A stretch of DNA of 38,435 bases. Source: a virus. Made by a program: the position numbers and the translations under genes. Positions 1 through 31,907 of the stretch are shown here, piece after piece. The notes below the pieces were generated by a model. It did not search any database. It saw only the letters and a list, made by a program, of their open reading frames with translations, and was not told where the DNA came from. The stretch is taken from IMG/VR virus record IMGVR_UViG_3300042922_000789, positions 1 through 38,435 of that record; one strand, 5' to 3'. How positions within the stretch are numbered: the stretch's first letter is position 1; each line of letters begins with the position of its first letter.

Positions 1-60
1 ATTCTAATCAAACAAATATTTATAGATAATGAGGATATAAAAATAGAGTGGAATTTTTGA
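1..60 (+). CDS. 3' end of a serine recombinase gene, partial at window start
   Basis: Codons from base 1 read ILIKQIFIDNEDIKIEWNF then TGA, the same as the C-terminus of the integrase at 36927-38321. The body of the gene, if present, lies left of the window. It could be an intact recombinase of a neighbouring element or only a duplicated end. This fragment has no function of its own that can be read here. Confidence 0.75.
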   Translation: MLIKQIFIDNEDIKIEWNF

Positions 61-80
61 GTTCCACTCTTATTGTTTTT
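45..80 (+). terminator. Rho-independent terminator (left copy)
   Basis: AGAGTGGAA (45-53) pairs perfectly with TTCCACTCT (62-70). The recombinase stop codon lies in the loop and a T-rich tract follows. It is identical to the terminator at the right end. Confidence 0.8.
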
Positions 81-95
81 AGTTATTTATTTAGG

Positions 96-142
96 CACAC
101 ATGGACTAACTATGTCTCTTGATAAGCCATGTATGCACATGG
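96..142. other. Probable attachment-site core region (attL)
   Basis: The switch from repeated to unique sequence falls after GATAAG at 126. ACATGG (99-104) and CCATGT (127-132) form inverted arms around a 22-bp centre, and CCATGT/ACATGG (127-142) is a second dyad. Imperfect dyads around the crossover are usual for large serine integrase attP sites. Joining the right-end sequence up to GATAAG with CCATGT here gives the inferred attP of the excised circle. The exact crossover dinucleotide cannot be fixed from one strand arrangement. Confidence 0.55.
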
Positions 143-163
143 ATTTATATTTAATTAAATAAT

Positions 164-193
164 ATATTAGCGCATATTTTGTAGTATTGTCAA
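164..193 (-). promoter_or_regulatory. Candidate outward-facing promoter near attL
   Basis: On the minus strand a perfect -35 TTGACA (188-193) is followed after 18 bp by TAATAT (164-169). It would transcribe leftward over the attachment site and antisense to the duplicated recombinase 3' end, or into the flank. No gene inside the window depends on it. Confidence 0.35.
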
Positions 194-239: not shown

Positions 240-2558
240 TTATACTGGCTTTGGCAGCTTACTAATAAATTTTGCATAACCTTTCTGATATTTAATTAAA
301 TTTAAAGAAGTAAACCTTTTCAAATTCAATAAGTCTTCTATCTCATATGGTTTCAATTCATCTTCAAGTTCTTTATATACTGTCTTATCTGCTCCATGCA
401 GTAGCATATATGAGCTGTTACCACTCTTAAGCTCTTCCTTCAATGTACCAATCTGATTGAGGTAGTGGCAGCTGAATACATACTTATTCCCAAACTTACG
501 CACCTGGTTAATTGTTTCTTTAATAAGCCTAGCTGCAGTTGGAGCTTGATATAGTTCATCAATTATTTCATGGCAGCGTGTGGGTTGATTATGCATAGAC
601 CCTCTTATCTTGGTTGCTAAAATTATCTTACTGCAGAAATACGTTACCAACACATTCTTAACCATCTTGCTTCCGAAGGTGTCCTCTGGCATCTTGATCA
701 GGATTACTTTGCCCTGCTCCATTGCCTGAACAAAGTCAATATTGTTGGAGCAGCCTTTGCTGTACATGTATTTTAAATATATGTTTTCTCTGATAAGGTT
801 TATACGGTCCAGTATCCCATCAATCTTGCTATCTCTTGTTCCAGTTAGCTCAGATAGAACTTCTTTTGTATCAGGATCCTTTGCAATGGTATATTCATTT
901 AGTTCTTCAAGCGCACCTATTTCTTCATCTAGAAGCACCTTCATAGACTCTGGTATTGCATCAATGTATTCCTGTCTCTTTCTATAATCTTGAAGACACA
1001 TTATAGCTGATTTTATATTTATATCAAAGAGAAAAGCTACGTTGCATGCTGCAGATAAATATCTGCGCATTTTGGAGGTAAGTGGAAGACCTTCATTGTT
1101 GATACTATCAACTAAAGCCAATGTCTGTTCAGCCATGAGATTAGCAGCCTTAAGTCTCTCAAAATCACTTTTATCAGTTCGCTTGATCTCATTATACCCA
1201 AGACCCTGTAGTTGAGATTCGTTAGAGCAATCAATGATAACGAGATCTTCCTTTGGCACTACTCTTTCAATATCATCTGATAACTCACAATTTTTTATGA
1301 AGTCAATAGCTATTACTGCTTCTTTGCGCTTCCTAGCATATTTTACATAGTTAGCAATATAAGTAGTTTTCCCACAACCAGGAGGACCCACAATCGTCAA
1401 TGGTAGATTCCCAAGGTTATACTCATCCGGCAGATAGGAAGGGTATTCTTTGCCTTTAAATGTGGCATCTCCAAGGTATATATATCCTTTATTTATTTCC
1501 TCTGGTATTGGAGATTCAAGCACATCTACTTTTTCAATATTAGAGTGCTGTTGCAATAATGTCCTCCCCGGTATTTGAATTAAGTTAGAAGCTTCCTCTG
1601 TGCTGATAATGTTAGTGGATACACCTTTGATTTTGAAGTCCTCTATACTATATACACACTTAACAGCTCTATATGAAAGGCTGTTATCTTCCGACAAGGT
1701 TTTATAACTCTCGCATACCGCTATAGCATTATTCTTAGCTCTTGTTTCGCTTTGGCTCTCACTGATCACCAGCATCTGTGCATCTAATATATTTCTATCT
1801 GACTTTCTCAAGGTTGTAGCAGAAAGCATTTTAAACAGCTGCATACCTGGACCTTCATCCTTACGTCCTTCAGTTATATTTTTGCCATCTCCTATGAAAT
1901 TGGCCATTTCTTCAAAAGTCATAATGAATATCTTCATAATTTCATCTATTAGGTACATCATCATATAGCCAATATTAAGTTTTTGCTTATCAATTGGAGT
2001 ATTCTTTTTTATCTTCTCCATAGTATCACGGTGTTTATTGTACCAGGCGGATTGATTAGTCGGCATGAAGTTATATAATACCCCTACTCGATCATCCTGT
2101 TCCATAATATCAATTACATTCAAAATACTGTTCAGCGGCTCATTACTCTTTTTATCAACCTTAAGGCTTAGAGCATCCTCTTTTCGATATACCAGTTCAT
2201 GCTTCACAGCTTTACTTGAGAACATCGGCACTTTTGCAACTCTTTGTATGGTAGCTTTTGGCCATGTATTGCTACACTTCTCTAATACCAACTTTTCAAA
2301 CTCTTCCGGAGTAATAATATAAAAGCTTACCTCTTTCAAACTTATATCTATAAAAAATGCTGTTTTATTTGGCAGCCTATAGGTAAGCTGGTGACTCTTA
2401 AACTTTAGTCTATCGATAGGAAGGTTATACATATTACATATAACCCTTGCTATATTTTCGCTGTCATAGTTTCTTATTGAGGTATCAGGAATTATCTTTA
2501 GTATGCTGTACTTTGGATTATAGATTTTAAAGAATTCGCTTGCTTTCATCCACTTCAT
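240..2558 (-). CDS. VirB4/HerA-class membrane-complex ATPase
   Basis: 772-aa ATPase of the HerA-FtsK superfamily. A Walker A motif GPPGCGKTT is at residues 391-399, a Walker B-like acidic pair IIDELYQAP at 666-674 (D667, E668), and a later polar motif FSCHYLNQ near 695-702. The first ~370 residues have no motif that I recognise, which fits the family pattern of a variable N-terminal domain before the motor. VirB4 and HerA relatives power type IV secretion or DNA translocation at the membrane. ATG start follows AAGGTGA and lies 2 bp from the upstream stop, so it is translationally coupled to two small membrane proteins in virB2-B3-B4 order. No relaxase or VirD4 partner is in the window. HerA-type helicase or FtsK-like pump are alternatives. 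Confidence 0.72.
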   Translation of the reverse strand: MKWMKASEFFKIYNPKYSILKIIPDTSIRNYDSENIARVICNMYNLPIDRLKFKSHQLTYRLPNKTAFFIDISLKEVSFYIITPEEFEKLVLEKCSNTWPKATIQRVAKVPMFSSKAVKHELVYRKEDALSLKVDKKSNEPLNSILNVIDIMEQDDRVGVLYNFMPTNQSAWYNKHRDTMEKIKKNTPIDKQKLNIGYMMMYLIDEIMKIFIMTFEEMANFIGDGKNITEGRKDEGPGMQLFKMLSATTLRKSDRNILDAQMLVISESQSETRAKNNAIAVCESYKTLSEDNSLSYRAVKCVYSIEDFKIKGVSTNIISTEEASNLIQIPGRTLLQQHSNIEKVDVLESPIPEEINKGYIYLGDATFKGKEYPSYLPDEYNLGNLPLTIVGPPGCGKTTYIANYVKYARKRKEAVIAIDFIKNCELSDDIERVVPKEDLVIIDCSNESQLQGLGYNEIKRTDKSDFERLKAANLMAEQTLALVDSINNEGLPLTSKMRRYLSAACNVAFLFDINIKSAIMCLQDYRKRQEYIDAIPESMKVLLDEEIGALEELNEYTIAKDPDTKEVLSELTGTRDSKIDGILDRINLIRENIYLKYMYSKGCSNNIDFVQAMEQGKVILIKMPEDTFGSKMVKNVLVTYFCSKIILATKIRGSMHNQPTRCHEIIDELYQAPTAARLIKETINQVRKFGNKYVFSCHYLNQIGTLKEELKSGNSSYMLLHGADKTVYKELEDELKPYEIEDLLNLKRFTSLNLIKYQKGYAKFISKLPKPV

Positions 2559-2559: not shown

Positions 2560-2832
2560 CTACATCACCTTATTGAATATCATGATTGTCAAGTATACGA
2601 AGAATGCCATCTGAGCATATATCCTAGCCTTCTTTACCCCTAAGAGATAAACAACTAAACTGATACAGAATATCGATAGGCATACATAAAAGCTAAGATT
2701 AACTGCAGTGTTCCATAACCAAAGCAACAGCTCCTTTGGATGGGTAATATAGTGATATACACTTTTTATAATGTCGAAGTACTCTCTTGTGGACTCATTG
2801 AACCTTTTTAAGCTATCTATCATATCCCACAT
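2560..2832 (-). CDS. Small two-helix membrane protein, VirB3-like position
   Basis: About 90 aa. An N-terminal amphipathic stretch (MIDSLKRFNESTREYFDI) precedes two or three hydrophobic segments (about residues 38-63 and 68-88). The ATG at 2832 preceded by AGGTG is preferred; a GTG at 2841 directly after the upstream stop is an alternative. It sits between the secreted small protein and the ATPase with almost no spacing. VirB3 proteins are small membrane proteins encoded immediately before virB4, so position and size suggest that role, but there is no diagnostic sequence motif. Confidence 0.55.
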   Translation of the reverse strand: MWDMIDSLKRFNESTREYFDIIKSVYHYITHPKELLLWLWNTAVNLSFYVCLSIFCISLVVYLLGVKKARIYAQMAFFVYLTIMIFNKVM

Positions 2833-2841
2833 ACACCGCAC

Positions 2842-3123
2842 CTACCTCCCAAAGGTTTTATCAATCATAACGAATACATTTGGCACCACATAACTTGCGA
2901 TATAGGTAAGCACGCAGGTTATTACAAGTTTCTTACCTTTATCGTCATGTTTAAGCATTTGTAAATACAATCCATAGATACTGGAAAAAATCCCTACCCA
3001 AAACAAACCTTTTCTAAAAGCTGTAAGGAGCTTCCAGAAGTCATCATCTCCACTGGTAGCATTAACAGTTGTAGTTAATATTAATATAGCAATTAGTAGA
3101 AACACTAATAGTTTTTTATACAT
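2842..3123 (-). CDS. Exported small two-helix protein, VirB2/TrbC pilin-like
   Basis: 93 aa. The N-terminus MYKKLLVFLLIAILILTTTV is a clear signal peptide, with a likely signal peptidase site after VNA (residues 20-22). The mature part has an acidic DDD cluster and two hydrophobic segments (about residues 39-58 and 67-88) separated by a basic HDDKGKK loop. This architecture is that of VirB2/TrbC pilins. SD is AAGGAGGG, spaced well. It is first of a tightly packed three-gene operon with the ATPase. A membrane subunit of an unrelated transporter cannot be excluded. Confidence 0.6.
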   Translation of the reverse strand: MYKKLLVFLLIAILILTTTVNATSGDDDFWKLLTAFRKGLFWVGIFSSIYGLYLQMLKHDDKGKKLVITCVLTYIASYVVPNVFVMIDKTFGR

Positions 3124-3351: not shown

Positions 3352-3549
3352 CTATATGCTTTCAAGAATATCAATAATTTCCTCACTCTTTACCTCAGTT
3401 ACAGCTGGGGTAATATTTATTTTTTGGTCTTTGTGATTCAAATAGAACTTAAGTGCATCCTTTATAAAATTGCTTTTATCTCCCTGCTCTACTACCTTAT
3501 CAAATAATTCTTTTTCTTTTTTCTTAAAGCTTACTAATACCTTTGCCAT
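3352..3549 (-). CDS. parR: ParR-like ribbon-helix-helix DNA-binding protein
   Basis: 65 aa. The N-terminal strand AKVLVSFKKKEKELFDKV followed by helices SNFIKDALKFYLNH fits a ribbon-helix-helix fold; the acidic tail EVKSEEIIDILESI could contact the actin partner. It overlaps the end of the parM-like gene by 16 bp, the usual parM-parR order. In such systems ParR binds centromere repeats and caps ParM filaments. The assignment rests on size, fold pattern and position. Confidence 0.72.
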   Translation of the reverse strand: MAKVLVSFKKKEKELFDKVVEQGDKSNFIKDALKFYLNHKDQKINITPAVTEVKSEEIIDILESI

Positions 3550-4424
3550 AAACTCACCCCTATCTTTTTAAAACCTGCTGCGTTTGCAAATTGTGCATTT
3601 GTCATGATACTGATTCCTGGTATTCGCTTATCAAACAACTGCTTCAATACGTATGCTCCACCACCCACCAAAATCACTTTAGCGGTTTTTGCCGGATATT
3701 TAAGTAGTAGTTCCTTTAGGATCTTATCTGTATGCTCTTCTATAATGCATCTTATAAAGCCTGTGTCCTGTCTTTCTCCATATATGCTCAAACCATTCTT
3801 TAGAATTCTCTCTCCATCTTCAATCTCAAATAGTGTCTCATATTTAGAATTAATAGCTGCAACCATCTTGGAGAATAAAGTAAGAGTACCCTCATATATT
3901 GTTGAGTGCTGTGTTACTTTTCTTTTGCCGTTAACCACCTGCAGCAATGCAATAATAACTGTGCGCCCTCCTATATCTATATAAACTCTGTCCTCCGTGT
4001 CATCTATGGAATCAAGCGAATAATGAGCTCCAAGGCACTGAGGGAACACTTCTGCTTTGGTAATTGAAATTACCCTCTTTTGTTTATTCAGTTCAAACTC
4101 AACATACCTGTTGCTTAACAACATTTCCTTCATTTGTTCCTTTTGTGAGTTAAAGAGTCCTAATGGAAGTCCTGCAACAACTTGAAAATCACTTTGATTG
4201 CTCGACTTTGCGAGAGCTGCCAATAAACAGACTTTCGTAATTTCCTTATTTATTCTGTTAAGGTCAACTTCTATATTGCCTTCACCTACAACAAAGGTCT
4301 TATTATCAAGCTTTAGTTGCATACCATCTCCCATAATATCCTCTTGTGTACTTATTCTTGAAGGAAATATTATGCCTTCAGATGTCTTTGTTTTATCATA
4401 GCCTTGGTCATATCCAATAATCAT
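3534..4424 (-). CDS. parM: ParM/StbA-like actin ATPase for DNA segregation
   Basis: 296 aa with actin-fold signatures: phosphate-1 motif IIGYDQGYDKTK (residues 2-13), phosphate-2 motif YIDIGGRT near 148-155, and adenosine motif VILVGGGAYVLK near 250-261. ParM polymers push replicated plasmids apart. SD AAAGGAGG lies slightly far (about 12 bp) from the ATG. The gene is followed by an overlapping parR and preceded by an AT-rich repeat region and another ribbon-helix-helix gene. Partition genes are typical of plasmids and plasmid-prophages and would be superfluous in a strictly integrated phage. Confidence 0.85.
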   Translation of the reverse strand: MIIGYDQGYDKTKTSEGIIFPSRISTQEDIMGDGMQLKLDNKTFVVGEGNIEVDLNRINKEITKVCLLAALAKSSNQSDFQVVAGLPLGLFNSQKEQMKEMLLSNRYVEFELNKQKRVISITKAEVFPQCLGAHYSLDSIDDTEDRVYIDIGGRTVIIALLQVVNGKRKVTQHSTIYEGTLTLFSKMVAAINSKYETLFEIEDGERILKNGLSIYGERQDTGFIRCIIEEHTDKILKELLLKYPAKTAKVILVGGGAYVLKQLFDKRIPGISIMTNAQFANAAGFKKIGVSLWQRY

Positions 4425-4442
4425 ATATACTTTTACCTCCTT

Positions 4443-4516
4443 TTATATATTTGTATATACTACTTGTTGTGTGTTTCGTATATCCTTTGTTATATTTATA
4501 TATCTATGTATATATA
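4443..4516. other. Candidate centromere-like (parC) repeat region
   Basis: This AT-rich gap upstream of parM contains GTATAT at 4453, 4478 and 4508 plus several TTATAT words. Centromeres of parMRC systems lie upstream of parM and consist of short repeats. The repeat is degenerate and partly low-complexity, so this is suggestive only. The parM promoter must also lie here. Confidence 0.35.
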
Positions 4517-4531
4517 TTTATTACTAAATTG

Positions 4532-4566
4532 GTAAAAAAAATAAGCCCTATTCTTCTTTAGGGCTT
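4532..4566 (-). terminator. Rho-independent terminator after the small RHH gene
   Basis: AAGCCCTA (4543-4550) pairs with TAGGGCTT (4559-4566); on the minus strand the stem is followed by TTATTTTTTTT. The stop codon of the 51-aa gene lies in the stem. It separates that gene from parMR, which therefore needs its own promoter. Confidence 0.8.
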
Positions 4567-4703
4567 TTCTTCAACATATCTTCATATATTAATTGTTTTA
4601 CATATGCACTAGGACCTATTAATGCGCTTTGTTCCTTGAGAAACTTTATAATCTTTTGCTCAAGATCTGTCTGCTTAAAACTGATCAGTATCTTCTCAGG
4701 CAT
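4548..4703 (-). CDS. 51-aa ribbon-helix-helix-like protein
   Basis: MPEKILISFKQTDLEQKIIK starts a 51-aa protein whose pattern (short strand, two helices with SAYVKQLIYEDM) parallels the ParR-like protein at 3352-3549. It lies immediately upstream of the candidate centromere and ends in a terminator. It could be a second repressor of the parM promoter or a divergent ParR. The SD is weak (GGGGTG further upstream). Confidence 0.6.
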   Translation of the reverse strand: MPEKILISFKQTDLEQKIIKFLKEQSALIGPSAYVKQLIYEDMLKKSPKEE

Positions 4704-4775: not shown

Positions 4776-5057
4776 CTAACCCACCTTAAGCATATGCCAT
4801 TTACATGATTGCTGGTCATACTGCAACTTAAAAGATACTAATGTATCCTCAATTATTGATTGACAATTAAATGTATAAGCTTTATTTTGATTACCATTCA
4901 TTGTGCCAAATGTATTTTTTAAATCTTGCTCTATAACCTTATCAATCTTAATAACATGGACCCCTTCTTCATCTTCAAACTTTATTCTATTAGGTCTGAT
5001 ACCGCCTTTTGGATCAAACGTAGCTATACACTCAACATGATATTTCTCACCAGCCAT
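4776..5057 (-). CDS. Conserved hypothetical protein, 93 aa
   Basis: The start is placed at MAGEKYHVECIATFD because GGAGGG lies 8 bp upstream; an in-frame ATG 15 bp earlier overlaps that SD. The protein is soluble, rich in beta-type residues, with two Cys near 65 and 86. It resembles small hypothetical proteins that I recall from clostridial genomes (PNRIKFEDEEG stretch), without known function. It is a stand-alone unit between the partition genes and the 165-aa gene. Confidence 0.7.
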   Translation of the reverse strand: MAGEKYHVECIATFDPKGGIRPNRIKFEDEEGVHVIKIDKVIEQDLKNTFGTMNGNQNKAYTFNCQSIIEDTLVSFKLQYDQQSCKWHMLKVG

Positions 5058-5731: not shown

Positions 5732-5763
5732 CAAATAAAAAAAGGTGCAGCCGAAGCTACACC
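5732..5763 (-). terminator. Rho-independent terminator of the late operon
   Basis: GGTGCAGC (5744-5751), loop CGAA, GCTACACC (5756-5763); on the minus strand the loop is TTCG and eight T follow. It overlaps the stop codon of the glycosidase gene. The stem is identical to that at 5131-5149. Confidence 0.88.
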
Positions 5764-6440
5764 CATGAAATAACGGAATATAATTGTCTAGTTGTACTGA
5801 TTAAGCTTTTTCCGCCTACTTTAAGTACTGTAGAACCACCACCATCTAAGGTGATTCCCATTGTACAACCTAAATTTAATAATGTTTGCCTACCTCTTGC
5901 AATATTACTATCAGGTCTTACTGCTATAATAATCTTATTAGCTTTAGGGTTATATCCTATTACAGGTCGGCTTGTTACTCTGCCTATATCAGAGAAGTCT
6001 CTTACGATACCGTCTCTGCATTTTCTTTTGCAGAAACCTTCTTCTTTCATGCAGATTTTAGGAAGTATAGAGCACCCACCTACTGCGAACCAAACATTTA
6101 TCTCTTGGTTCAGGTCTGTAATTGACTTTACAGCTACTTTGCCATCACGATAGACTATTAATGTTCCTGCTGGATATGGTAGGCTTAGATGGTCAATATG
6201 TGGCTGCCTGTTGCAGATTATTTTACCCTCACTTGCTAATATGCTAATAGGTACGGCTTTTACTTTATTAGTCTTCTTACCAGTTTCATAAACCGCATCC
6301 CAGGTGATAAATCCAGGAGTAACCATATTTTTTAATGGCATCTTATTAGCTGCCATATCATGTACAGATATCCTTAAATCCAAAGGATCTAATTCTACTA
6401 CATGAGTTGAAGCTACTTTAGAATATTTCACTCTGACCAC
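5757..6440 (-). CDS. Phosphodiester glycosidase (NAGPA-domain) protein
   Basis: 227 aa. The motif GITLDGGGSTVLKVGG near residues 196-211 is characteristic of the NAGPA (phosphodiester glycosidase, DUF2233-like) family, as is a central VGGCSILP stretch. Related proteins act on sugar phosphodiesters; in a phage this would be the cell envelope, for example wall teichoic acid. There is no obvious signal peptide. It overlaps the endolysin gene by 13 bp and is last in the lysis cluster, which suggests an accessory wall-degrading role. Confidence 0.8.
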   Translation of the reverse strand: MVRVKYSKVASTHVVELDPLDLRISVHDMAANKMPLKNMVTPGFITWDAVYETGKKTNKVKAVPISILASEGKIICNRQPHIDHLSLPYPAGTLIVYRDGKVAVKSITDLNQEINVWFAVGGCSILPKICMKEEGFCKRKCRDGIVRDFSDIGRVTSRPVIGYNPKANKIIIAVRPDSNIARGRQTLLNLGCTMGITLDGGGSTVLKVGGKSLISTTRQLYSVISWV

Positions 6441-23714: not shown

Positions 23715-24003
23715 CGCCTACTTTCGGTATAGCCTTTAATCCTAGCTCATTCAGCAACCTTAACATTTGAGCGTTAGTCTTGTTCAGTTCAGCAATGGAA
23801 TCGTTTTTCTTGAAGCCATGTTGAGATGCACCATTAACCCATTCAACAGATACACCCCTCTTTTTTATGTCTTTTATGAGGGCGTTCTTAATTTCCCATA
23901 GGGCCATATAGTCGTTTATCATATCAAGATACATGTTCCCATATATTCCTTTTTCCTCAAGCTGATCTAACAAGTCTTTTTTTATTTCTGCTTTTTTGCT
24001 CAT
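23686..24003 (-). CDS. terS: Terminase small subunit, P27-like
   Basis: 105 aa from MSKKAEIKKDLLDQLEEKG; a purine-rich GGGAGGGGG lies upstream of this ATG. Helical, with the ending pattern NKTNAQMLRLLNELGLKA common to P27-family small subunits. It recognises the packaging site; the candidate cos region lies directly upstream. Confidence 0.85.
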   Translation of the reverse strand: MSKKAEIKKDLLDQLEEKGIYGNMYLDMINDYMALWEIKNALIKDIKKRGVSVEWVNGASQHGFKKNDSIAELNKTNAQMLRLLNELGLKAIPKVGDGDDGGEEM

Positions 24004-24117
24004 TGCCCTACCCCCTCCCATCGTGCGTGAATTTTCGGATAAATCTCTTTTGTCAGTTCCTACCTCCGGTCCCCATGTTTTTAGCCTAAATTCGTTTTTT
24101 TGACCCGGGGGTATGCT
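24004..24117. other. Non-coding packaging (cos) candidate between HNH and terS
   Basis: The 114-bp gap has no frame and contains the only strongly GC-rich patch nearby, GACCCGGGGGTATGC, at 24102-24116, after a T-run. In HNH-associated cos phages the cleavage site lies beside the HNH and terS genes. The exact nick positions cannot be read from an integrated copy. Confidence 0.45.
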
Positions 24118-24435
24118 TTACCACTGTTCTTTATTCGTGAATTTATCAGTAACATTATTGTTATGCTTCTCAGGATGCTCCACATTGTGGCAAGGATTAC
24201 ATATGCTGATTAGATTCTCATCACTCAATGCCAACATCGGAAAATCTTTTAGATGTTTCTTATGATGCACGCATTCTGCTTTATGATATAGCCTTTTGTT
24301 TTTACACAACTGACATTCTTTGTTATCTCTAAGCAGTATTTCTTTTCTCTTCTTGCGCCACTCTTTACTCTTGTAGAACTTCCTGACATTACCTTCTTCA
24401 ATTGCTTTAAGTAATTCTATTCTCAATATCTTCAC
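24118..24435 (-). CDS. HNH endonuclease adjacent to terminase
   Basis: 105 aa. The zinc cysteines are CQLCKN and CNPCHN; the catalytic strand is AECVHHKKHLKDFPMLALSDENLISICNPCHNVEH (HNH/N). Phage HNH proteins next to terminase aid cos cleavage and packaging. The start is uncertain: GTG at 24435 or a TTG 9 bp later, which has a better SD (AGGTGA). Confidence 0.9.
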   Translation of the reverse strand: MKILRIELLKAIEEGNVRKFYKSKEWRKKRKEILLRDNKECQLCKNKRLYHKAECVHHKKHLKDFPMLALSDENLISICNPCHNVEHPEKHNNNVTDKFTNKEQW

Positions 24436-24449
24436 CTAGCTATATATTA

Positions 24450-24478
24450 GAGCCCGACACGGAGGAAATGCCGAGCTC
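24450..24478 (-). other. Structured RNA element copy 1 (hairpin with CCTCC loop)
   Basis: On the minus strand GAGCTCGGCA pairs with TGTCGGGCTC (two G-U pairs) and leaves the loop TTTCCTCCG. The pairing works only in minus-strand RNA, since the plus strand has C-A and A-C mismatches. It lies between the 63-aa gene and the HNH gene. A similar hairpin is at 24744-24770. Confidence 0.55.
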
Positions 24479-24484
24479 CCTAAC

Positions 24485-24676
24485 TTACATTATTCTTTTC
24501 AAACTCTCAGCTATCCACCTACTCTTTGGCAGCTCTCCTGTACATGCTAATCTGCAGAGCATGAAAGCTATGTCTTTACGCTTTACATGTGTATGATGCT
24601 CAAAGCCTTTGATCTTGTTAAACACTATGTATTGACCTTTTATATTAATAATGCCGAAATGCTTATAATGCAACAT
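24485..24676 (-). CDS. Hypothetical protein, 63 aa
   Basis: The start MLHYKHFGIINIKGQY is chosen because AGGTG lies 6 bp before; an in-frame TTG 27 bp earlier overlaps a hairpin. Basic protein with HHTHVKRKDIAFMLCRLACTG. No family is recognised. Two hairpin elements flank the gene. Confidence 0.6.
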   Translation of the reverse strand: MLHYKHFGIINIKGQYIVFNKIKGFEHHTHVKRKDIAFMLCRLACTGELPKSRWIAESLKRIM

Positions 24677-24701
24677 AACTGACACCTTCTTTATTTCATT
24701 C

Positions 24702-24733
24702 AATGCGGATAAGAATTACTCCCTATCCGCATT
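24702..24733 (-). other. Perfect 10-bp hairpin upstream of the 63-aa gene
   Basis: AATGCGGATA (24702-24711) and TATCCGCATT (24724-24733) enclose a 12-nt loop that contains GGGAG on the minus strand. No T-run follows, so it is not a simple terminator; it lies in the leader of the 63-aa gene. Confidence 0.6.
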
Positions 24734-24743
24734 GTTCATATAC

Positions 24744-24770
24744 AACCCAGCACGGAGGCAATGCCGAGTT
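24744..24770 (-). other. Structured RNA element copy 2 (hairpin with CCTCC loop)
   Basis: AACTCGGCA pairs with TGCTGGGTT on the minus strand and leaves TTGCCTCCG. Compared with copy 1, the outer base pair changes from G-C to A-T with pairing kept. It is located between the 32-aa gene and the 63-aa gene. Confidence 0.55.
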
Positions 24771-24779
24771 TCCTAGATA

Positions 24780-24878
24780 TCACTTCTTAATACACACAGC
24801 AAATAGACAAGTGTACTTATATCCATGCCATGTACCCCATATACATTTGTAGCACTTGTGATTACATGGTTCGTTCAC
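24780..24878 (-). CDS. 32-aa cysteine-rich small phage protein
   Basis: GTG at 24878, preceded by AAGGTGATGAG, opens a frame NEPCNHKCYKCIWGTWHGYK ending CIKK. Four Cys and a His in CNHKCYKC...C...C spacing suggest a small zinc-binding knuckle. Similar tiny CxWGTW proteins occur in clostridial phages as I recall, without known function. Confidence 0.6.
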   Translation of the reverse strand: MNEPCNHKCYKCIWGTWHGYKYTCLFAVCIKK

Positions 24879-24910
24879 CTCATCACCTTCTATGATTAAT
24901 TGATCACATT

Positions 24911-24940
24911 ATAAAAGCCGCCTGGTTTCCCAAACGGCTT
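24911..24940 (-). terminator. Rho-independent terminator
   Basis: AAGCCG (24915-24920) and CGGCTT (24935-24940) plus inner pairs close on a GAAA loop; TTTATA follows on the minus strand. It ends the recombinase cassette transcript. The 284 bp from here to 25163 carry no long gene, only this terminator, one copy of the 21-bp repeat and an inverted repeat TTTGAGT/ACTCAAA near 25037-25079. Confidence 0.75.
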
Positions 24941-24987
24941 CAAGTAATATCTTTCTAGTATAAACAGTATCATAGAAAGTCAAGGCT

Positions 24988-25008
24988 GTCAGTCACCTAA
25001 AAGTCACA
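24988..25008. repeat. 21-bp direct repeat, copy 1
   Basis: GTCAGTCAC then two variable bases then AAAAGTCACA; 19 of 21 bases match 26200-26220. At both sites a terminator follows about 50-60 bp further left, and an ATACTAGAAA word is shared. The copies bracket the short tyrosine recombinase and its partner gene. Confidence 0.7.
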
Positions 25009-25163
25009 ACTTTTACAAATACTTATTTTTAATTGTTTGAGTAGAACATATCTTATAAAACTGTTAAACCCACTCAAAGGAGTTTCTTCTATATATACAA
25101 ATTTATTTATAGATATGAGTTTGACAACTTCATTTTATGTTCTATTGTATGATAAAAAAATAT

Positions 25164-25532
25164 TTACAAGGCTTTACACAATTTATAAACCGTGATCCAT
25201 GCAACCTTTCCTGTGTTAAATCTATAAAGTGACTTCGCAATATGAAATATATCACTTTCAGTTTCATTAATGTCTATAATAGAAGTTACATCATTAGAGG
25301 TATACTTACGTTCTCCAAGCTTACCATTAGACTTAATCCTATAGCCTTCATTGTTTAGATATTCAGCAACCTTAGCTGCGTGTTGTAGTTCTATATACTT
25401 CTGTAGTATTTTTTCTTCAGTACTTTTACTATCACGTTGCAATAATTCTTTTAGTTTATTTCTTACAACTTCAAGTTCTTCTATCTTTTCATTTATAGAT
25501 TCAACTGTTATTACTTTTACCGGACTACTCAT
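25164..25532 (-). CDS. Coiled-coil hypothetical protein coupled to the recombinase
   Basis: 122 aa. The N-terminal half is a coiled coil (SINEKIEELEVVRNKLKELLQ); the C-terminal half (DIFHIAKSLYRFNTGKVAWITVYKLCKAL) is a compact helical domain. Not recognised. Its start overlaps the recombinase stop by 8 bp, which suggests that the two work together, perhaps as an accessory or directionality protein. Confidence 0.65.
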   Translation of the reverse strand: MSSPVKVITVESINEKIEELEVVRNKLKELLQRDSKSTEEKILQKYIELQHAAKVAEYLNNEGYRIKSNGKLGERKYTSNDVTSIIDINETESDIFHIAKSLYRFNTGKVAWITVYKLCKAL

Positions 25533-26103
25533 TTAATTCACCCCTCTTATTTCTTTTCTTATAACTTAATTTCTTCATGATCTTATCTTTAGTTTCTTGC
25601 ACAACACCTATATATCTAAGTGTTGTTGATATGTCCGAGTGGTTAAGTATCTCTTTTATTGCGGCTAAGTCCTTTGTCTGCTGATATAGAAAATACCCAA
25701 AAGTTTTTCTACATGTATGTGTACCTATACTTTCCAACCCAAATTTACCAGCTGCATCGTTTAATATTCCATAGGCCCTTGTTCTTGTAATTGCTTTATT
25801 CTGCCCTTCTCTTGATTTAAACAAGTGCTCATAGTCTTGTTTACCTTCAACATAATCTTTAAGTATTTCCTTGAGTTCATCATGTATTGGAAAGCGTTTT
25901 TCTTTATTAGTTTTCTGTTCATGGATATATATATAGTCTTTGTCTTTTACATCTCTCACTTTAATTTTAAGAATATCTGAGATTCTTAAACCAGAATATA
26001 TGCCGAACATAAACATTACATAATCCCTAATGTTCTTAGTTTTTAAATAATCCGCAATATCATTAACCATATCAATGTCTCTTATAGGTTCTACTGTATT
26101 CAT
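25525..26103 (-). CDS. Short tyrosine recombinase
   Basis: 192 aa consisting of the catalytic domain with little of the N-terminal core-binding domain. The catalytic set is visible: R40 (SGLRISD), K64/K67, H129-R132 (HTCR), H155 (LNHSD) and Y164. This is shorter than XerC/D (about 300 aa). It lies between the late regulator and the packaging genes, far from the attachment ends, so it is not the phage integrase. It may resolve multimers or mobilise its own cassette. Confidence 0.88.
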   Translation of the reverse strand: MNTVEPIRDIDMVNDIADYLKTKNIRDYVMFMFGIYSGLRISDILKIKVRDVKDKDYIYIHEQKTNKEKRFPIHDELKEILKDYVEGKQDYEHLFKSREGQNKAITRTRAYGILNDAAGKFGLESIGTHTCRKTFGYFLYQQTKDLAAIKEILNHSDISTTLRYIGVVQETKDKIMKKLSYKKRNKRGELNE

Positions 26104-26125
26104 CTATCTCACCTGCCTTTCATTA

Positions 26126-26157
26126 TAAAATAAGAAGCTCAGGTTTCCCCGAGCTTC
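26126..26157 (-). terminator. Rho-independent terminator after the late regulator
   Basis: A 10-bp stem (GAAGCTCAGG at 26134-26143 with CCCGAGCTTC at 26148-26157) encloses GAAA on the minus strand, then TTATTTTAT. It separates the regulator from the recombinase gene. Confidence 0.85.
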
Positions 26158-26199
26158 AATTTATCACTTAGTAACATGATATTCCTGTTTTCTAGTATT

Positions 26200-26220
26200 G
26201 TCAGTCACTAAAAAGTCACA
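26200..26220. repeat. 21-bp direct repeat, copy 2
   Basis: Partner of 24988-25008 with two mismatches. It covers the last codons and stop of the late regulator gene, so copy 1 may be a duplicated 3' end created when the 1.2-kb recombinase cassette entered. Confidence 0.7.
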
Positions 26221-26636
26221 TGTTTATTTCTACTACTTATATTTTTTATGTATCCATGGTCATGGCCTAATATATCTGCTATTTCTTGAAGGTCTATATT
26301 TTCAATATCTCTCAAATACACAACTTTGTAATCTAAACTATCAAGTTGAAGCACTTTAGCATATGTCTCCACTTTTAAATCTTTTAAATTCTGCAGAGTA
26401 CCTGTCTCAAGTTCAATCATTCTTTCATATTTCTGCATATACATGTGTATTCTATCATAACTCATCGCATTTCCATTTCCGTGTGGCTGACCATCATAAT
26501 TTATAGCACTAATTTCATGTGGAGCATCTTTGTGAAGTAATCGTTTATAATAATCTAATTGATTAGTTGCTACTTCTAAGTAGTCTTCATGTATTTCAAT
26601 CTGTAAATTAAGGTCTTTAAAAGATTTAAAATCCAC
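26208..26636 (-). CDS. Late transcription regulator, sigma-like (ArpU/RinA type)
   Basis: 142 aa; GTG start behind AAAGGAGG. The N-terminal two thirds are helical; the C-terminal part LDSLDYKVVYLRDIENIDLQEIADILGHDHGYIKNISSRNK is a sigma-70 region 4-like helix-turn-helix. ArpU/RinA/LtrC-type proteins placed just before the packaging genes activate the late operon. The protein ends within the 21-bp repeat. Confidence 0.8.
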   Translation of the reverse strand: MDFKSFKDLNLQIEIHEDYLEVATNQLDYYKRLLHKDAPHEISAINYDGQPHGNGNAMSYDRIHMYMQKYERMIELETGTLQNLKDLKVETYAKVLQLDSLDYKVVYLRDIENIDLQEIADILGHDHGYIKNISSRNKHVTF

Positions 26637-26666
26637 CTGCTCCTACCTCCTTTTTTTGTTCAAGTG

Positions 26667-27020
26667 TTAAGCTATTTTGTATTCTGATAGTTTGTAGTCA
26701 TACTTGTTTCCTGTGCCTTTGGTTAAGATATAAATTGGTTTGCCTTCCTCGATGGCCCATTTGTACTCTTCTGTGCATCCTTTGCTCTGCTCCCAATCTT
26801 CACATAAGATAATAGCATCACAAGCATTATATAAGTGTCTGCACTTTTCCATTGCCTCATCATTATTGCTTCCAAGAGGTAGTATTATTGGATTAACTAC
26901 CTTTATGTCATGATGCGTAAGCAAAGCAAATTCAATGACCTTTGCACTGATTATATTTTTCTTTAAGTCTCCATAAGTTGTGAACGGATGACTTAAATAA
27001 TAAAGTTTATTTTTATCCAT
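26667..27020 (-). CDS. DUF4406 protein (nucleoside deoxyribosyltransferase-like)
   Basis: 117 aa. LYYLSHPFTTYGD at the start, NACDAIILCEDWEQSKGCTEEYKWAIEEGKPIYIL in the second half match DUF4406, a Rossmann-like family related to nucleoside 2-deoxyribosyltransferases. The conserved S..G...E pattern supports nucleotide binding. Role in phage nucleotide metabolism is inferred. It overlaps the preceding gene by 8 bp. Confidence 0.8.
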   Translation of the reverse strand: MDKNKLYYLSHPFTTYGDLKKNIISAKVIEFALLTHHDIKVVNPIILPLGSNNDEAMEKCRHLYNACDAIILCEDWEQSKGCTEEYKWAIEEGKPIYILTKGTGNKYDYKLSEYKIA

Positions 27021-27198
27021 TGTTATTCTCCTTCATATCTTTATTTTTTTCTTTCCATTGGCTGCAGACATTTCTGTTTCCCCAATGAGTTTTACTGACT
27101 TCGCATTTTATGATATCTTTTTCTTCTGTTGGCTCTTCATGTTCACACGTGCAGCATCTCTGCTTAAGGTCGTACATGTCAACGTACATTTTACCCAT
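27013..27198 (-). CDS. Small cysteine-rich (zinc-binding) protein
   Basis: 61 aa or slightly fewer; internal ATGs at codons 4 and 8 are alternatives. CCTCEHEEP, KCEVSKTHWGNRNVCSQW gives a CxxC...C...C zinc-knuckle pattern. It is sandwiched between ssb and the DUF4406 gene with tight spacing. No known function. Confidence 0.6.
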   Translation of the reverse strand: MGKMYVDMYDLKQRCCTCEHEEPTEEKDIIKCEVSKTHWGNRNVCSQWKEKNKDMKENNNG

Positions 27199-27201
27199 TT
27201 A

Positions 27202-27591
27202 TTAAAATGGAAGATCGTCTTCTTCCTCTGCTGGGTGGAAGTCTGACTGCCCTTGTTGTTGTGCTTGTCCCTCTGTTGCCTTGTCTAAGAAATGCACTTC
27301 ATCGGCTGTAACCTCTGTAGCAAAATGTCTCTTTCCTTCCTGGTCATCCCAGCTTCTTGTCTGAATTCTTCCAGATACAGCAACTAATCTGCCTTTTTTT
27401 ATGTATTTGCCACAGTTCTCCGCAGGCTTACCCCATACAACTATTGGTATGAAATCTGCATCAGGCTGGCCTTCTTGCTTATATAATCTATTTACAGCCA
27501 AGGTAAACTTAGCTACTGGTGTTTGGTTGTTCGCTGTGTATCTTACTTCTGGGTCCTTGGTTAATCGACCCACTAAAGCTACCTTATTCAT
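27202..27591 (-). CDS. ssb: Single-stranded DNA-binding protein
   Basis: 129 aa. The OB fold is clear from MNKVALVGRLTKDPEVRYT, FTLAVNR and FIPIVVWGKPAENCGKYIKKG; the Gln/Gly-rich linker (residues 105-118) and the acidic tip EEEDDLPF are those of bacterial SSB, which recruits replication partners. SD TAGGAGG. It supports phage DNA replication. Confidence 0.96.
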   Translation of the reverse strand: MNKVALVGRLTKDPEVRYTANNQTPVAKFTLAVNRLYKQEGQPDADFIPIVVWGKPAENCGKYIKKGRLVAVSGRIQTRSWDDQEGKRHFATEVTADEVHFLDKATEGQAQQQGQSDFHPAEEEDDLPF

Positions 27592-27614
27592 TTAATTACC
27601 TCCTAACTATTTAA

Positions 27615-28613
27615 TTATTGAGCATGATGTTTTTTATATGCTTCCTGCTTTCGCTGTTCAGACACCGTTGCATAAATTTGAGTAGTAGCAGGATCCTCAT
27701 GCCCGAGCAATGCTTGTACATCAGCAAGATTTGCACCATTTTCTAATGCTAATGTTGCAAAGGTATGTCGCATGATATGTGGATGTATATTTTTCTTTAT
27801 TCCAGTACGTACTGCTATGATTTTAAACGATCTTTGTATAGCTCTATTGCCTAACCTAGTGTATGGCTTGCGTTCAGTTACAAATAAAGCTTCACAATCA
27901 TCTGTACGACTCATTAAATACTTTTTTAAATGGTAGAAAGCTTTGTAGCTAAAGCAAACTATTCTTTCTTTGTTACCCTTACCAATAACTTTTGCCGTCA
28001 TGTTTTGCCAGTTTATATCATCCTTACTCATTCCCGATATTTCAGATAGTCGGCTGCCTGTTGCGTAGAAGGTTTCTACTAACGCCCTTTCTCTAAGCGT
28101 TTTGCACCCTTCTCTTAGCAACTCAAATTCCTCAACATTTAGTGACTTCACTATGCGCTTTTCAGCTTTAATCTGATTAATCTTTCTCATTGGTGATTTA
28201 TTTATATAGTCTTGATTTTCTAGCCAAGTGAAGAAACTGCGTAATATTGATATCTCCGTTTGTATTGTAGAATTCTTAAGTGTTTTGCTCTTTGAATACT
28301 CTGCTAAAAATAATCGTATGTCCATGGCTGTAATGTCCTCAACATTCTTTTGCATAAACATTGCAAATCTTTTCAAGTGCTGAGCATATCCTTTTAGGGT
28401 TAACATGGACAGCCCGTCCAGTTTTTTCGATGCTAAGTATATCAATACTCTATCTCTTATATTTGACATAACTGTCAAGGCTGTCTCCATGGGTTTTAAT
28501 TCATAATCATTTAATACTAATTCCAGTGTTGTTCTGAGGTTGTTTTGGTCTATACCAGGCTGCTCCATCATAACTTTACTTACTATTTTTATAATCGCTT
28601 CATCTTTATACAT
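27615..28613 (-). CDS. Tyrosine recombinase, XerC/D-like
   Basis: 332 aa. After a ~65-aa N-terminal extension there is a SAM-like core-binding domain (about 68-150) and a complete catalytic domain: R188 (ATGSRLSE), K212/K215, H279-x-x-R282, H305 (LLGHED) and Y314. It is not beside the attachment ends. Plausible roles are resolving circular phage dimers or inverting DNA. A 40-bp dyad lies just upstream of its start and could be its target or operator. Confidence 0.9.
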   Translation of the reverse strand: MYKDEAIIKIVSKVMMEQPGIDQNNLRTTLELVLNDYELKPMETALTVMSNIRDRVLIYLASKKLDGLSMLTLKGYAQHLKRFAMFMQKNVEDITAMDIRLFLAEYSKSKTLKNSTIQTEISILRSFFTWLENQDYINKSPMRKINQIKAEKRIVKSLNVEEFELLREGCKTLRERALVETFYATGSRLSEISGMSKDDINWQNMTAKVIGKGNKERIVCFSYKAFYHLKKYLMSRTDDCEALFVTERKPYTRLGNRAIQRSFKIIAVRTGIKKNIHPHIMRHTFATLALENGANLADVQALLGHEDPATTQIYATVSEQRKQEAYKKHHAQ

Positions 28614-28636
28614 ACTAGTACCTCCATTTAATTTTA

Positions 28637-28676
28637 TAGGAGTTGTAAAAGCACTAAATATGTGTAAAAACTCCTA
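28637..28676. other. Dyad upstream of the 332-aa recombinase gene
   Basis: TAGGAGTT (28637-28644) and AACTCCTA (28669-28676) are perfect inverted arms, with inner CAC/GTG partly paired. There is no T-run, so it is a poor terminator. The 22-28 bp spacing is unlike a dif site; recombinase binding or operator function is possible. Confidence 0.4.
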
Positions 28677-28717
28677 GTTTATATATTTGTTAAAACTCTT
28701 TATGCTTGGAATGTGTC

Positions 28718-29227
28718 TTAACTAACTTTCTTTTCTACTGTTACAATAGTATCGTTATGGCTGCCACCATGAGCTACAAGTAAGATTTCTTCAATCTCAA
28801 ACCCTCTTACTTTTCCAACTCCAGAGCTGTTCCACCCTAAACTAATTACCTTGCCATTAGGCTTTAATATTCTTTTTATTTCGTCTATGTGCTTATTTCT
28901 CCAACTACTCTGTGTAGTTTCCATAGTTACTGCAATACCAACGTTTTTATAACATTCAGATACTTGCCTTAGTGAGTATGGAGGGTCATATAGCACTCCA
29001 TCAACTGAATTATCTGCAAACATTTTTAAGAAGTCTAAGGCATCCATATGGTAATCCGTATTGTATTCTGGGTTTAAATCATTTGTAATAGTTGCAATCT
29101 TACTTTCATTGGCGAAAGCATCAACCCATATTTCGCCCTGACAAACTATTACATTCAGCAGTTCCTTTATAGGCTTTATACTAAATGTTTTACTGTTAGG
29201 CATTGCCCACACCCTGGATATTTTCAT
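28718..29227 (-). CDS. Adenine-specific DNA methyltransferase-like protein
   Basis: 169 aa. The catalytic motif DPPY is at residues 81-84; WVDAFAN near 34-40 is the SAM-binding region. The motif order (SAM site before DPPY) fits short N6-adenine or N4-cytosine methyltransferases. No partner restriction enzyme is encoded, so it is an orphan enzyme that may protect phage DNA. SD AAAGGGGG precedes the ATG. Confidence 0.8.
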   Translation of the reverse strand: MKISRVWAMPNSKTFSIKPIKELLNVIVCQGEIWVDAFANESKIATITNDLNPEYNTDYHMDALDFLKMFADNSVDGVLYDPPYSLRQVSECYKNVGIAVTMETTQSSWRNKHIDEIKRILKPNGKVISLGWNSSGVGKVRGFEIEEILLVAHGGSHNDTIVTVEKKVS

Positions 29228-29264
29228 TCTCTATACATCCCCCTTTAACGCCTTCACATTTTAT

Positions 29265-29897
29265 TCAGTACTTGGTGGTATCTCCACCCCATTGTTCAGC
29301 CATAGCTTTTGCTATGCCGGGAAATGTTTTACTTCTTGTTTTGGCATCTCTTATTTTTGTTCCGCTTTGTTTTCTTGGATTGCCTTTGTTATCTTTTGAA
29401 CCTCCAGAAACCCAACTTATAATGTTTTCCGTAATTATCTCAGTAGGTTTTAATTTCGGTAAACCTTTTAACCATAAACAAGTTTTTTTGCTATATGGAT
29501 GTCCGTGTTCGAAAGGCTGTATTATTTGTGTGTATGGCGGTAATTCATATATTCTTGTTGGTATGGGATTCTCTATTGCTATTTTGTCGCAGTTTGCATT
29601 GTAAAAACTCATAAAGAACTCTTTTGCTTTTAACCCTTTTTCGTATCTTTCTAAGTTTAATTGTCCTTTTTTAGGATATAAACGAGCTGCGCCGGCATTA
29701 CTTAAGTATGTGCATGGGGGGAAAGCTATTATCATATCCCATTTTTCTTTTAGCAATATGATTACATCTTGCTGTAAATGCCATTCTGGATGCCCTCCAC
29801 TACACTCGATGATGTCACATGAATATGCTTCATGACCTAATCTTCTAAACTCTTTTGTTACTGCTTGACTTTCCTCACAAGCTACTAATATTTTCAT
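29265..29897 (-). CDS. Cytosine-C5 DNA methyltransferase-like phage protein
   Basis: 210 aa. FPPCTYLSNAG (P60-P61-C62) is the C5 methyltransferase motif IV with the catalytic Cys, IENPIPTR the ENP motif VI. Motif I is the phage-type LVACEESQAV rather than FxGxG. It is shorter than typical C5 enzymes (about 300 aa or more), lacking a large target-recognition domain, as in other small phage Dcm-like proteins. It is an orphan enzyme next to the adenine-type gene. Confidence 0.85.
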   Translation of the reverse strand: MKILVACEESQAVTKEFRRLGHEAYSCDIIECSGGHPEWHLQQDVIILLKEKWDMIIAFPPCTYLSNAGAARLYPKKGQLNLERYEKGLKAKEFFMSFYNANCDKIAIENPIPTRIYELPPYTQIIQPFEHGHPYSKKTCLWLKGLPKLKPTEIITENIISWVSGGSKDNKGNPRKQSGTKIRDAKTRSKTFPGIAKAMAEQWGGDTTKY

Positions 29898-30027
29898 TTT
29901 TTACCCTCCACGTCTGGAGGTGTGCGCACACTTTTTATCTAGAATTACTCCGATATTTTAATTTTTATTTGTTGCACAACATTATTCAGTTCTTGCAATG
30001 TTCTTGAACTGTACAACTATTAGCTTA

Positions 30028-30384
30028 TTAAAATTTATACTTCGAAATGGCTTCTTGAATCGTCTCAGCATCATATTCGCAATCTACTTCAATATATCTA
30101 GGGGAAACAACACCCTCAAACTTTACTAGGTCAAACCACTCCCCTTTATTTTCATTGCTGAAAACATAAGAATAGTAAATAGGAATCTCATGTATCCCAA
30201 ATCCTTCTATATCAAAGGCAGATTCGATTATATGACACACCCTCAAATCCAAATCCTCATTTAGTTTAGTCATTTCATTCGACTCAATTGCTTCTATATA
30301 TTTAGTGAGTTCATTTTGAATATAAATATTTGTTGTATTTTTTAAAAGCTCACTTGCCACCTTTATTTTGTTTTGCTTTTTCAT
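30028..30384 (-). CDS. Hypothetical protein, 118 aa
   Basis: The start MKKQNKIKVASELL is chosen because AAAGGGTGAT precedes it; a frame start 33 bp earlier would contain that SD. Helical N-terminus, then an acidic beta-rich C-terminus (EGVVSPRYIEVDCEYDAETIQEAISKYKF). Not recognised. The 130 bp to the methyltransferase gene hold nothing that I can identify. Confidence 0.6.
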   Translation of the reverse strand: MKKQNKIKVASELLKNTTNIYIQNELTKYIEAIESNEMTKLNEDLDLRVCHIIESAFDIEGFGIHEIPIYYSYVFSNENKGEWFDLVKFEGVVSPRYIEVDCEYDAETIQEAISKYKF

Positions 30385-30439
30385 ACAATCACCCTTTCTT
30401 ATTGAATATTTTCTCAAAGCATCTAATTATTGAAATATG

Positions 30440-30619
30440 TTATTTCATATCACGCATGTACATCATGCAATTTAAAACTCCCGTAACAGTAGTTGTTCTA
30501 CCTTTTCTCTTAATACCACCACCAAAGAACATCTTTTGCAACTTGGGGCAGTTAGGCTCACAATACTTCTGATTTTTCCTCTTAGGTTCAAATTCTTTAT
30601 TACAGCTTGTACATTTCAT
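30440..30619 (-). CDS. 59-aa zinc-finger-like small protein
   Basis: MKCTSCNKEFEPKRKNQKYC has a CxxC...CxxxC (CEPNC) pattern, followed by a basic GGGIKRKGRTTT stretch. ATG at 30619 with AAGGAGTG upstream. Typical of tiny phage early proteins of unknown role. Confidence 0.65.
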   Translation of the reverse strand: MKCTSCNKEFEPKRKNQKYCEPNCPKLQKMFFGGGIKRKGRTTTVTGVLNCMMYMRDMK

Positions 30620-30654
30620 TAAAAATTCACTCCTTCGCTACATATTCATGTTGC

Positions 30655-30903
30655 TTAAACTTGCTTCAAAAGCCTATCCCAAACATTCTGATTATCTTCG
30701 ATATATCCACACTCTACGAACTTCTTATTTATTGCCTTTGCTAACCAACCATTAGAAGTTACATAGTATTTAGTTTTTCCTAAGCAACCAATGAACTTAT
30801 ATTTTTTATCCTTGATAACTTCATTTCCATGTTGACAAGGTATTCCAATGCAATAATTACTCTTGCTGCTTTGACATTTTCTATTGCACTTTATAGTTTT
30901 CAT
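30655..30903 (-). CDS. Hypothetical cysteine-containing protein, 82 aa
   Basis: MKTIKCNRKCQSSKSNYCIGIPCQHGNEV carries four Cys and a His that could bind zinc; the C-terminal half is basic and helical. The ATG overlaps the stop of the replication gene (ATGA) with AGAGGTGA upstream, so translation is coupled to replication initiator synthesis. Confidence 0.65.
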   Translation of the reverse strand: MKTIKCNRKCQSSKSNYCIGIPCQHGNEVIKDKKYKFIGCLGKTKYYVTSNGWLAKAINKKFVECGYIEDNQNVWDRLLKQV

Positions 30904-31784
30904 AGTTCACCTCTACTTTTTGCTAGTAGCTTCTCTTCAAGCGATTGTGAATCATATTCTCTGTTCTTGAAGTTGCTAAATCCATTCTTCTTTTGATTGC
31001 CTTTTGCAGTCCCTTCTTTGTTCTTGTAGTTTCCCTCTATAATCTTTTGCAAGTTAGTTGGCTTGATGATCCAATCAAAGCTGCATCCAATCCAATTACC
31101 ATCGCGCCCACTAAGAAAGTTGCTTTCATGTACTGTCTGAAATAGACTTTTCCAAAACTCAATATCGCTGTATTCCTTCCACCTATTGTTAATTGTCTTT
31201 TGCCTGCTTCCTTTAACATTCTTAATTTTTGGTAAGGTTGTACACATTTCATTAAAAAGCTGTTGAATTTGTGCGTAAGGTGTCGGCTCTGCAGACGAGA
31301 TATTATTCTTTATATCTTTATCTAGTTCTTTATCTAGTTCTAGTTCTGTTGCGTTACCTTGCGTTACTGTAGCGTTACATGTAACGCTACCAGATAATAA
31401 CTTTTGTTTATCTCTGCATTTTTCAACTCTTAATCTTGTTTGTTGTCTTATTTTCTCGAGTCCTTCAATGTTTTGATATTCATTCCAGTTTTTTATGTAA
31501 ATAATATCTTCAAATATCTCAATCATTGAAAACCTTTCAAGAGTTATTAATGCTAATTGGATAACAGAAACTTCAAAATCAAATTCAATTGCTAGATCCT
31601 CTGTTCTAAATGGTATTGTGTCAGTTAAATACAGAGCTCCACTCTTGTTACACTCTCCTGCTTGTGCCAACAAGAAAACCCATATTAAAACAATGTTGTT
31701 TCCTTCGGGCAATGCCCTAATGCGCTTTATTTTTTTATTACTTACCATATCTGTATAAATTTTTATCCATTTTACATCTGACAA
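30900..31784 (-). CDS. Phage replisome organizer / replication initiator
   Basis: About 294 aa; a TTG at 31784, 7 bp behind GGAGG, is favoured over the TTG one codon earlier. The N-terminal ~120 residues (DVKWIKIYTDMVSNKKIKRIRALPEG ... NWNEYQNIEGLEKIRQQTRLRVEKCRDKQK) form the Phage_rep_org_N winged-helix domain; a low-complexity linker follows (residues 130-160), then a C-terminal domain with SFDWIIKPTNLQKIIEGNY typical of DnaD/DnaB-like initiators that recruit the helicase. The linker DNA contains iterons, as expected for phage origins located inside the initiator gene. Confidence 0.9.
   Translation of the reverse strand: MSDVKWIKIYTDMVSNKKIKRIRALPEGNNIVLIWVFLLAQAGECNKSGALYLTDTIPFRTEDLAIEFDFEVSVIQLALITLERFSMIEIFEDIIYIKNWNEYQNIEGLEKIRQQTRLRVEKCRDKQKLLSGSVTCNATVTQGNATELELDKELDKDIKNNISSAEPTPYAQIQQLFNEMCTTLPKIKNVKGSRQKTINNRWKEYSDIEFWKSLFQTVHESNFLSGRDGNWIGCSFDWIIKPTNLQKIIEGNYKNKEGTAKGNQKKNGFSNFKNREYDSQSLEEKLLAKSRGEL
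31309..31389. other. Putative phage replication origin (iterons and AT-rich tract)
   Basis: Inside the initiator gene TTGCGTTAC occurs at 31349-31357 and 31359-31367, followed by the perfect 20-bp palindrome TAGCGTTACATGTAACGCTA at 31370-31389. Half-sites are 10-11 bp apart, one helical turn. To the left lies an AT-rich stretch with repeated TTTATCTAG words (about 31309-31348), a likely unwinding region. The initiator's winged-helix domain would bind here. Confidence 0.75.
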
Positions 31785-31797
31785 CAAATCACCTCCC

Positions 31798-31827
31798 CTG
31801 AGAGGGTAACTCTGTAGCCACCCTCAG
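31798..31827 (-). promoter_or_regulatory. Leader hairpin directly before the initiator ribosome site
   Basis: On the minus strand CTGAGGGT pairs with ACCCTCTCAG (2-nt bulge) around a 12-nt loop; the SD GGGGAGG begins at once after it. It may limit ribosome access or protect the 5' end. Confidence 0.45.
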
Positions 31828-31882
31828 ATATTTGCATGTTTTATGTATTTGTGATATTTTTAAATTGAGTTATTTTTTATTT

Positions 31883-31907
31883 GAGCCGTTGCAAGGCTCT
31901 TTTTTTA
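31883..31907 (+). terminator. Plus-strand terminator with no evident gene
   Basis: GAGCC (31883-31887) and GGCTC (31895-31899) are followed by TTTTTTT on the plus strand; the minus strand has no T-run at the other end. No plus-strand gene precedes it, so it may end an antisense or small RNA from the initiator region, or it may be chance. Confidence 0.45.

Follow-up and report, generated by a model that had tools for sequence, protein, structure and literature searches.

A ParM-ParR pair at the front of a mobile phage gene cassette with a predicted VirB4-like ATPase

The window analysed here is one entire IMG/VR virus record of 38,435 nucleotides. It carries an actin-like ATPase gene with small genes on both sides, followed on the same strand by two genes for small membrane proteins and one for a large ATPase, and it has attachment sequences at both ends. 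The features are listed by position and strand.

1-126 (+): 3' end of the integrase gene and arm of attP at the contig start, identical to 38262-38387
164-193 (-): promoter-like sequence TTGACA-18-TAATAT, pointing out through the attachment core
240-2558 (-): ATPase of the VirB4/TrwB/HerA class, 772 aa (phrog_5156; AlphaFold model)
2560-2841 (-): TMa, small membrane hairpin protein (from its translation)
2842-3123 (-): TMb, small membrane protein with a signal-peptide-like start and a pilin-like look (from its translation)
3352-3549 (-): ParR-like ribbon-helix-helix (RHH) adaptor, 65 aa, with a hydrophobic C-terminal tail, ILESI (phrog_18533, 1.5e-11; tail pattern)
3534-4424 (-): ParM actin-like ATPase, 296 aa (Pfam, PHROG and PDB-structure profile match)
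4425-4547 (no strand): candidate parC and parM promoter region, 80% AT (AT content; repeats)
4543-4566 (-): intrinsic terminator at the 3' end of the upstream RHH gene, which it sets apart from parM
4548-4703 (-): second RHH-like gene, 51 aa, tailless (phrog_4223, 3e-11)
4776-5057 (-): conserved 93-aa neighbour gene that travels with the cassette (48-94% identical in G002-G005; 35% in L018)
36927-38321 (+): large serine integrase (phrog_95, 1.2e-126)
38262-38387 (+): the other copy of the 126-nt repeat, with host DNA after it
38376-38435 (+): attachment core and adjoining host DNA, corresponding to the 5' end of a metK leader with a SAM-I riboswitch (84% match to MAG contig G001:C9)

A preliminary description of this DNA had proposed a complete parM-parR pair, and the evidence supports such a type II (ParM/ParR) system, with both genes where they had been placed. 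At 3534-4424 the matches to Pfam (ALP_N, 1.5e-22; MreB-like_C, 1.2e-07), to PHROG (phrog_691, 'partition protein', 1.4e-47) and to the profile of the solved Clostridium botulinum Cbc-ParM (E 6.8e-40) agree on ParM, and the 65-aa gene and the parM stop overlap by 16 nt. The same description had ParM flanked by two RHH genes. Their positions were confirmed, and the two small proteins are probably related, since both match phrog_14312 (1.4e-05 for the 65-aa protein and 0.0021 for the 51-aa protein). No RHH model matched either of them in a Pfam scan, and a search of a ParR profile against the PDB gave no match; the RHH assignment of both comes from the sequence pattern and from a profile built in this analysis.

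The two genes are not equivalent, however. In relatives where the profile found an RHH gene directly downstream of ParM, the protein had F, I, L, M or V as its final residue every time (17 of 17, with tails such as NILDF, NINFEF and LIEFDF), whereas the RHH genes of cassettes without ParM had a hydrophobic final residue in 2 of 19 cases (p ~2e-8, by hand and ignoring the kinship of the sequences). This shared hydrophobic tail suggests that the ParR C-terminus probably docks ParM, and the locus thereby has two features of a type II (ParMRC) system, a ParM-family ATPase and, directly downstream, a ParR gene with a probable docking C-terminus. The upstream 51-aa protein ends in KEE. Similar genes sit upstream of ParM in L015, L038, L086 and L090, and the proteins of the last three have polar ends too. 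Because the downstream gene has the ParM-linked tail, while the upstream gene is tailless, separated by a terminator and missing from the four closest relatives (G002-G005), the 65-aa gene is, as judged from its sequence, ParR and the sole ParM partner of the two. The same points make it highly improbable that both genes encode equivalent ParM adaptors, an idea that their common phrog_14312 match would favor. Nor is the upstream gene a general part of the locus, for in its place the four closest relatives have an XRE-type gene. We infer that it encodes an accessory DNA-binding protein or a regulator that can be exchanged, and not a second ParM adaptor.

The region between parM and the upstream gene had been described as AT-rich and repetitive. 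An AT content of 80% over its 123 nt is reached by 0.15% of 123-nt windows; the repeats amount to two 39-nt copies with 72% identity plus the AAATATATA motif. In L002-L005 this motif, which was chosen post hoc, stands at a fixed 20-nt spacing and occurs once more 44 nt further along, there with one mismatch in L004 and in L005. The AT-rich region upstream of parM is a probable candidate for the centromere.

What the preliminary description overlooked is the continuation of the locus into the two membrane-protein genes and the VirB4-like ATPase. The AlphaFold model of the ATPase (pLDDT 86.8) had its best structural match in VirB4 (4ag5, VIA Z 27.6), followed closely by the DndH C-domain, TrwB and HerA; in the alignment to full-length TrwK/VirB4, 540 residues of the model (11-771) were matched at an rmsd of 10.7. 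When its sequence profile was compared with solved structures, VirB4 appeared at E ~0.6 only. By its modelled fold the protein is a VirB4-type ATPase, as found in type IV secretion. The order of a small signal-peptide membrane protein, a small membrane protein and a VirB4-like ATPase is also that of the virB2-virB3-virB4 block of type IV secretion systems (T4SS). A counterpart of TMb holds the same position across relatives, one of which gave a weak T4SS_pilin match (E 0.022), and in L039, L056, L070, L072, L074-L076 and L089 an M23 peptidase domain is fused to TMa, which suggests a wall- or envelope-crossing complex. Unlike in that block, TMa and TMb had no significant Pfam match as VirB3 or VirB2, their position and topology being compatible, and neither a relaxase nor VirB6, VirB8 or VirB10 was recognised among the window proteins scanned.

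Relatives of the ATPase were gathered from genomes and viral contigs, and merging of near-copies left 53 loci with enough upstream sequence. In 22 of these independent loci ParM preceded the ATPase on its strand at a distance of 0.8-2.9 kb, and in four more it lay elsewhere; the remaining 27 had no ParM within reach, and hence the ATPase set does not need ParM. Among the 31 phage records matched by the terminase of the window, ParM was found in none (0/31) and the ATPase in none (0/31). Mapped onto the tree of the ATPase, the presence of ParM required 17 changes, at least 14 of them forced by well-supported branches, which is about as many as with shuffled labels; there were accordingly 14 or more predicted gains or losses of ParM, always in the same slot. 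Four phages with distant, unrelated or undetectable terminases share the cassette of the window at 80-86% identity, and the cassette therefore moves as a unit. ParM-ParR forms, on sequence grounds, the leading part of a phage-borne mobile cassette with the order ParM-ParR-TM-TM-ATPase. Cassettes with ParM were present on chromosome-scale contigs (L031, L034). L060 has, ~3.2 kb upstream of the ATPase, a gene for a ParA-like protein together with a small partner gene, at the place where other phages carry ParM.

The cassette also occurs in lytic phage SPO1 (L104, SPO1 88000-100000). There, ParM (gp27.9), the adaptor-like gp27.8, small membrane proteins and the same ATPase (gp27.4) form one gene run within gp27.9-gp27.3 (NC_011421). 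SPO1 differs from the phage of the window in being lytic and in having an additional Replic_Relax protein, gp27.3, with the same replication-relaxation domain as reported for the tyroviruses discussed below. ParM accompanies the same ATPase in phage D6E, as in SPO1. A keyword-level literature search on SPO1 and the cassette found nothing. All organism or host names of the 56 ATPase-bearing phage records, the host of D6E being inferred, point to endospore-forming genera, which we regard as a lead only. Among 399 Bacilli genomes the ATPase was found in 21, and Spo0A was present in 21 of these 21 as compared with 326 of the 399 overall; with p ~0.01 by hand and phylogeny ignored, this too is kept as a lead only. 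The Clostridia genomes with the ATPase also have Spo0A, as expected of most Clostridia.

Since the last 60 nt at the right end match the 5' end of the SAM riboswitch upstream of metK, the phage integrates at the metK leader, evidently by its serine integrase; the related MAG contig G001:C9 has the riboswitch (RF00162, E 7.9e-19) and a metK ORF. The integrase seems to use as its host site the conserved 5' end of the SAM-I riboswitch (window 38376-38435; L093 1412-1514), and the exact attachment-core DNA was found in no other viral contig. The phage-borne promoter-like site at 164-193 would face the riboswitch once integrated, and promoter-like sites at the attachment end are no commoner than in shuffles. 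Besides the serine integrase there are two tyrosine recombinases (25525-26103, 192 aa; 27615-28613, 332 aa), one of which could resolve dimers. Elsewhere in the window, a gene at 5757-6440 with a weak match to NAGPA phosphodiester glycosidase adjoins the endolysin gene, and two adjoining DNA methyltransferase-like genes occupy 28718-29897.

The contig starts with the repeated 126 nt of the integrase end, followed by phage DNA, and thus has an intact attP, so that circles or concatemers were present in the sample. Such DNA is as compatible with lytic replication as with a plasmid. A phage-plasmid state in addition to integration had been suggested for this virus, partly from iteron clusters. 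Integration and circular or concatemeric DNA hold up, but the plasmid state does not follow: ParM by itself is no marker of a phage-plasmid here, because the cassettes also occur on chromosome-scale contigs and in a lytic phage. Nor was an iteron array found over 24000-37000, which gave 2-copy repeats only. The replication genes seen among the window ORFs scanned are of the ordinary phage DnaD type, and the cassette lies between the lysis genes and the attachment site.

Several known systems resemble parts of this locus. With the plasmid type II systems R1 ParMRC, pSK41 and Cbc-ParM of C. botulinum it shares the ParM family, a ParR gene directly downstream and an AT-rich region upstream of parM; it differs from them in its integrating phage, its extra tailless RHH gene and the linked VirB4-like ATPase set, and its centromere is a candidate one. 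In the Corynebacterium prophage CGP3, which is integrated and able to excise, the actin-like AlpC was reported to link excised phage DNA to filaments and appears to push DNA to the membrane (PMC4446434). AlpAC likewise combines an actin-like protein with a DNA adaptor, but there the adaptor gene lies upstream of the actin gene, whereas in the window the tailed adaptor is downstream and the upstream RHH gene lies behind a terminator; a membrane ATPase cassette is no part of the description of CGP3 drawn on here (PMC4446434). The srpMRC locus of SXT is a ParMRC system on an integrative element that stabilises the element by acting on its excised circle (PMC4489591). SXT/R391 elements, which we liken by description and not by sequence, differ in being conjugative, with a full transfer system and relaxase (PMC4489591). 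The closest parallel in gene content was described for Thrax1-5, tyroviruses of Bacillus anthracis, whose gp11-gp18 include ParM, an RHH partner directly downstream, an ATPase of the type IV secretion class together with a replication-relaxation protein, a block that the authors proposed to originate in a conjugative plasmid (PMC9703825). No replication-relaxation gene was found in the window. Such a block was therefore already known in Bacillus tyroviruses; added here are the recurrence of the ParM-ParR and VirB4-like cassette, the membrane pair and the M23 fusions, which are absent from the part of that account available to us, an account that covers one phage group (PMC9703825).

We consider it fairly probable (about 0.6) that this mobile cassette is headed by a true type II ParM-ParR unit, which has a probable centromere and handles excised or replicating phage circles, probably towards a membrane complex. 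ParR would bind the AT-rich region upstream of parM and, by its C-terminal tail, hook the phage DNA to ParM filaments, which would carry the excised or replicating circular DNA as far as the membrane or the pole. At that site the ATPase and its two membrane-protein partners may either anchor the DNA for replication and inheritance or translocate it.

It is possible, with lower probability, that the phage is also a low-copy plasmid whose plasmid form ParMRC segregates at division. The intact attP, and with it circular or concatemeric DNA in the sample, would agree with this, as would the ParA-like gene and partner that replace ParM in L060 and the B. cereus plasmid prophages reported to have ParM with an RHH gene (PMC8026635). 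Among named sequences, the closest relatives of this ParM belong to C. difficile plasmids that bear phage genes as well, the two records tested being without the ATPase. The serine integrase and host junction point instead to integration, and the chromosome-scale contigs, SPO1, the DnaD-type replication genes and the missing iteron array over 24000-37000 all speak against a plasmid. Somewhat more doubtful is a role of ParM confined to lytic growth, in which it would position phage DNA as AlpC does and aid replication, the ATPase complex being a membrane anchor or having a separate function. CGP3 gives the precedent (PMC4446434), SPO1 is lytic and the cassette adjoins the lysis genes; the inverted order of AlpA and AlpC relative to ParM and ParR, and a recurrent ATPase partner that has no counterpart in the CGP3 description cited (PMC4446434), argue otherwise. 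Unlikelier still is a lysogenic-conversion or anti-phage defence module with ParM as an incidental neighbour. The C-domain of the ATPase does match the PADLOC mad8 model (1.4e-11), HerA defence complexes share its fold, and accessory genes are typically found close to an attachment site, as the cassette is, but neither an effector nuclease nor an NADase was found in the cassette, ParM returned to the same slot at least 14 times and SPO1 has the same set.

Returning to the reading in which ParM and ParR bring phage DNA to a membrane complex, transfer of DNA through that complex is a possibility. A more speculative proposal, which we hold to be rather unlikely as it stands, is that phages of endospore formers carry a minimal, relaxase-free T4SS-like DNA translocator made of pilin-, VirB3- and VirB4-like proteins and sometimes an M23 hydrolase, with ParM and ParR delivering the DNA. 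If this were true, phage DNA would cross an envelope or a septum and could enter, for instance, a forespore or an adjacent cell. ParM on a phage is usually taken as the mark of a phage-plasmid, and our findings warn against such a call from ParM alone. The re-assembly of ParM-ParR beside a VirB4-like set on integrated, temperate and lytic phages points to a shared way of handling phage DNA at the membrane, and the role of the cassette is testable in SPO1, a long-studied phage.
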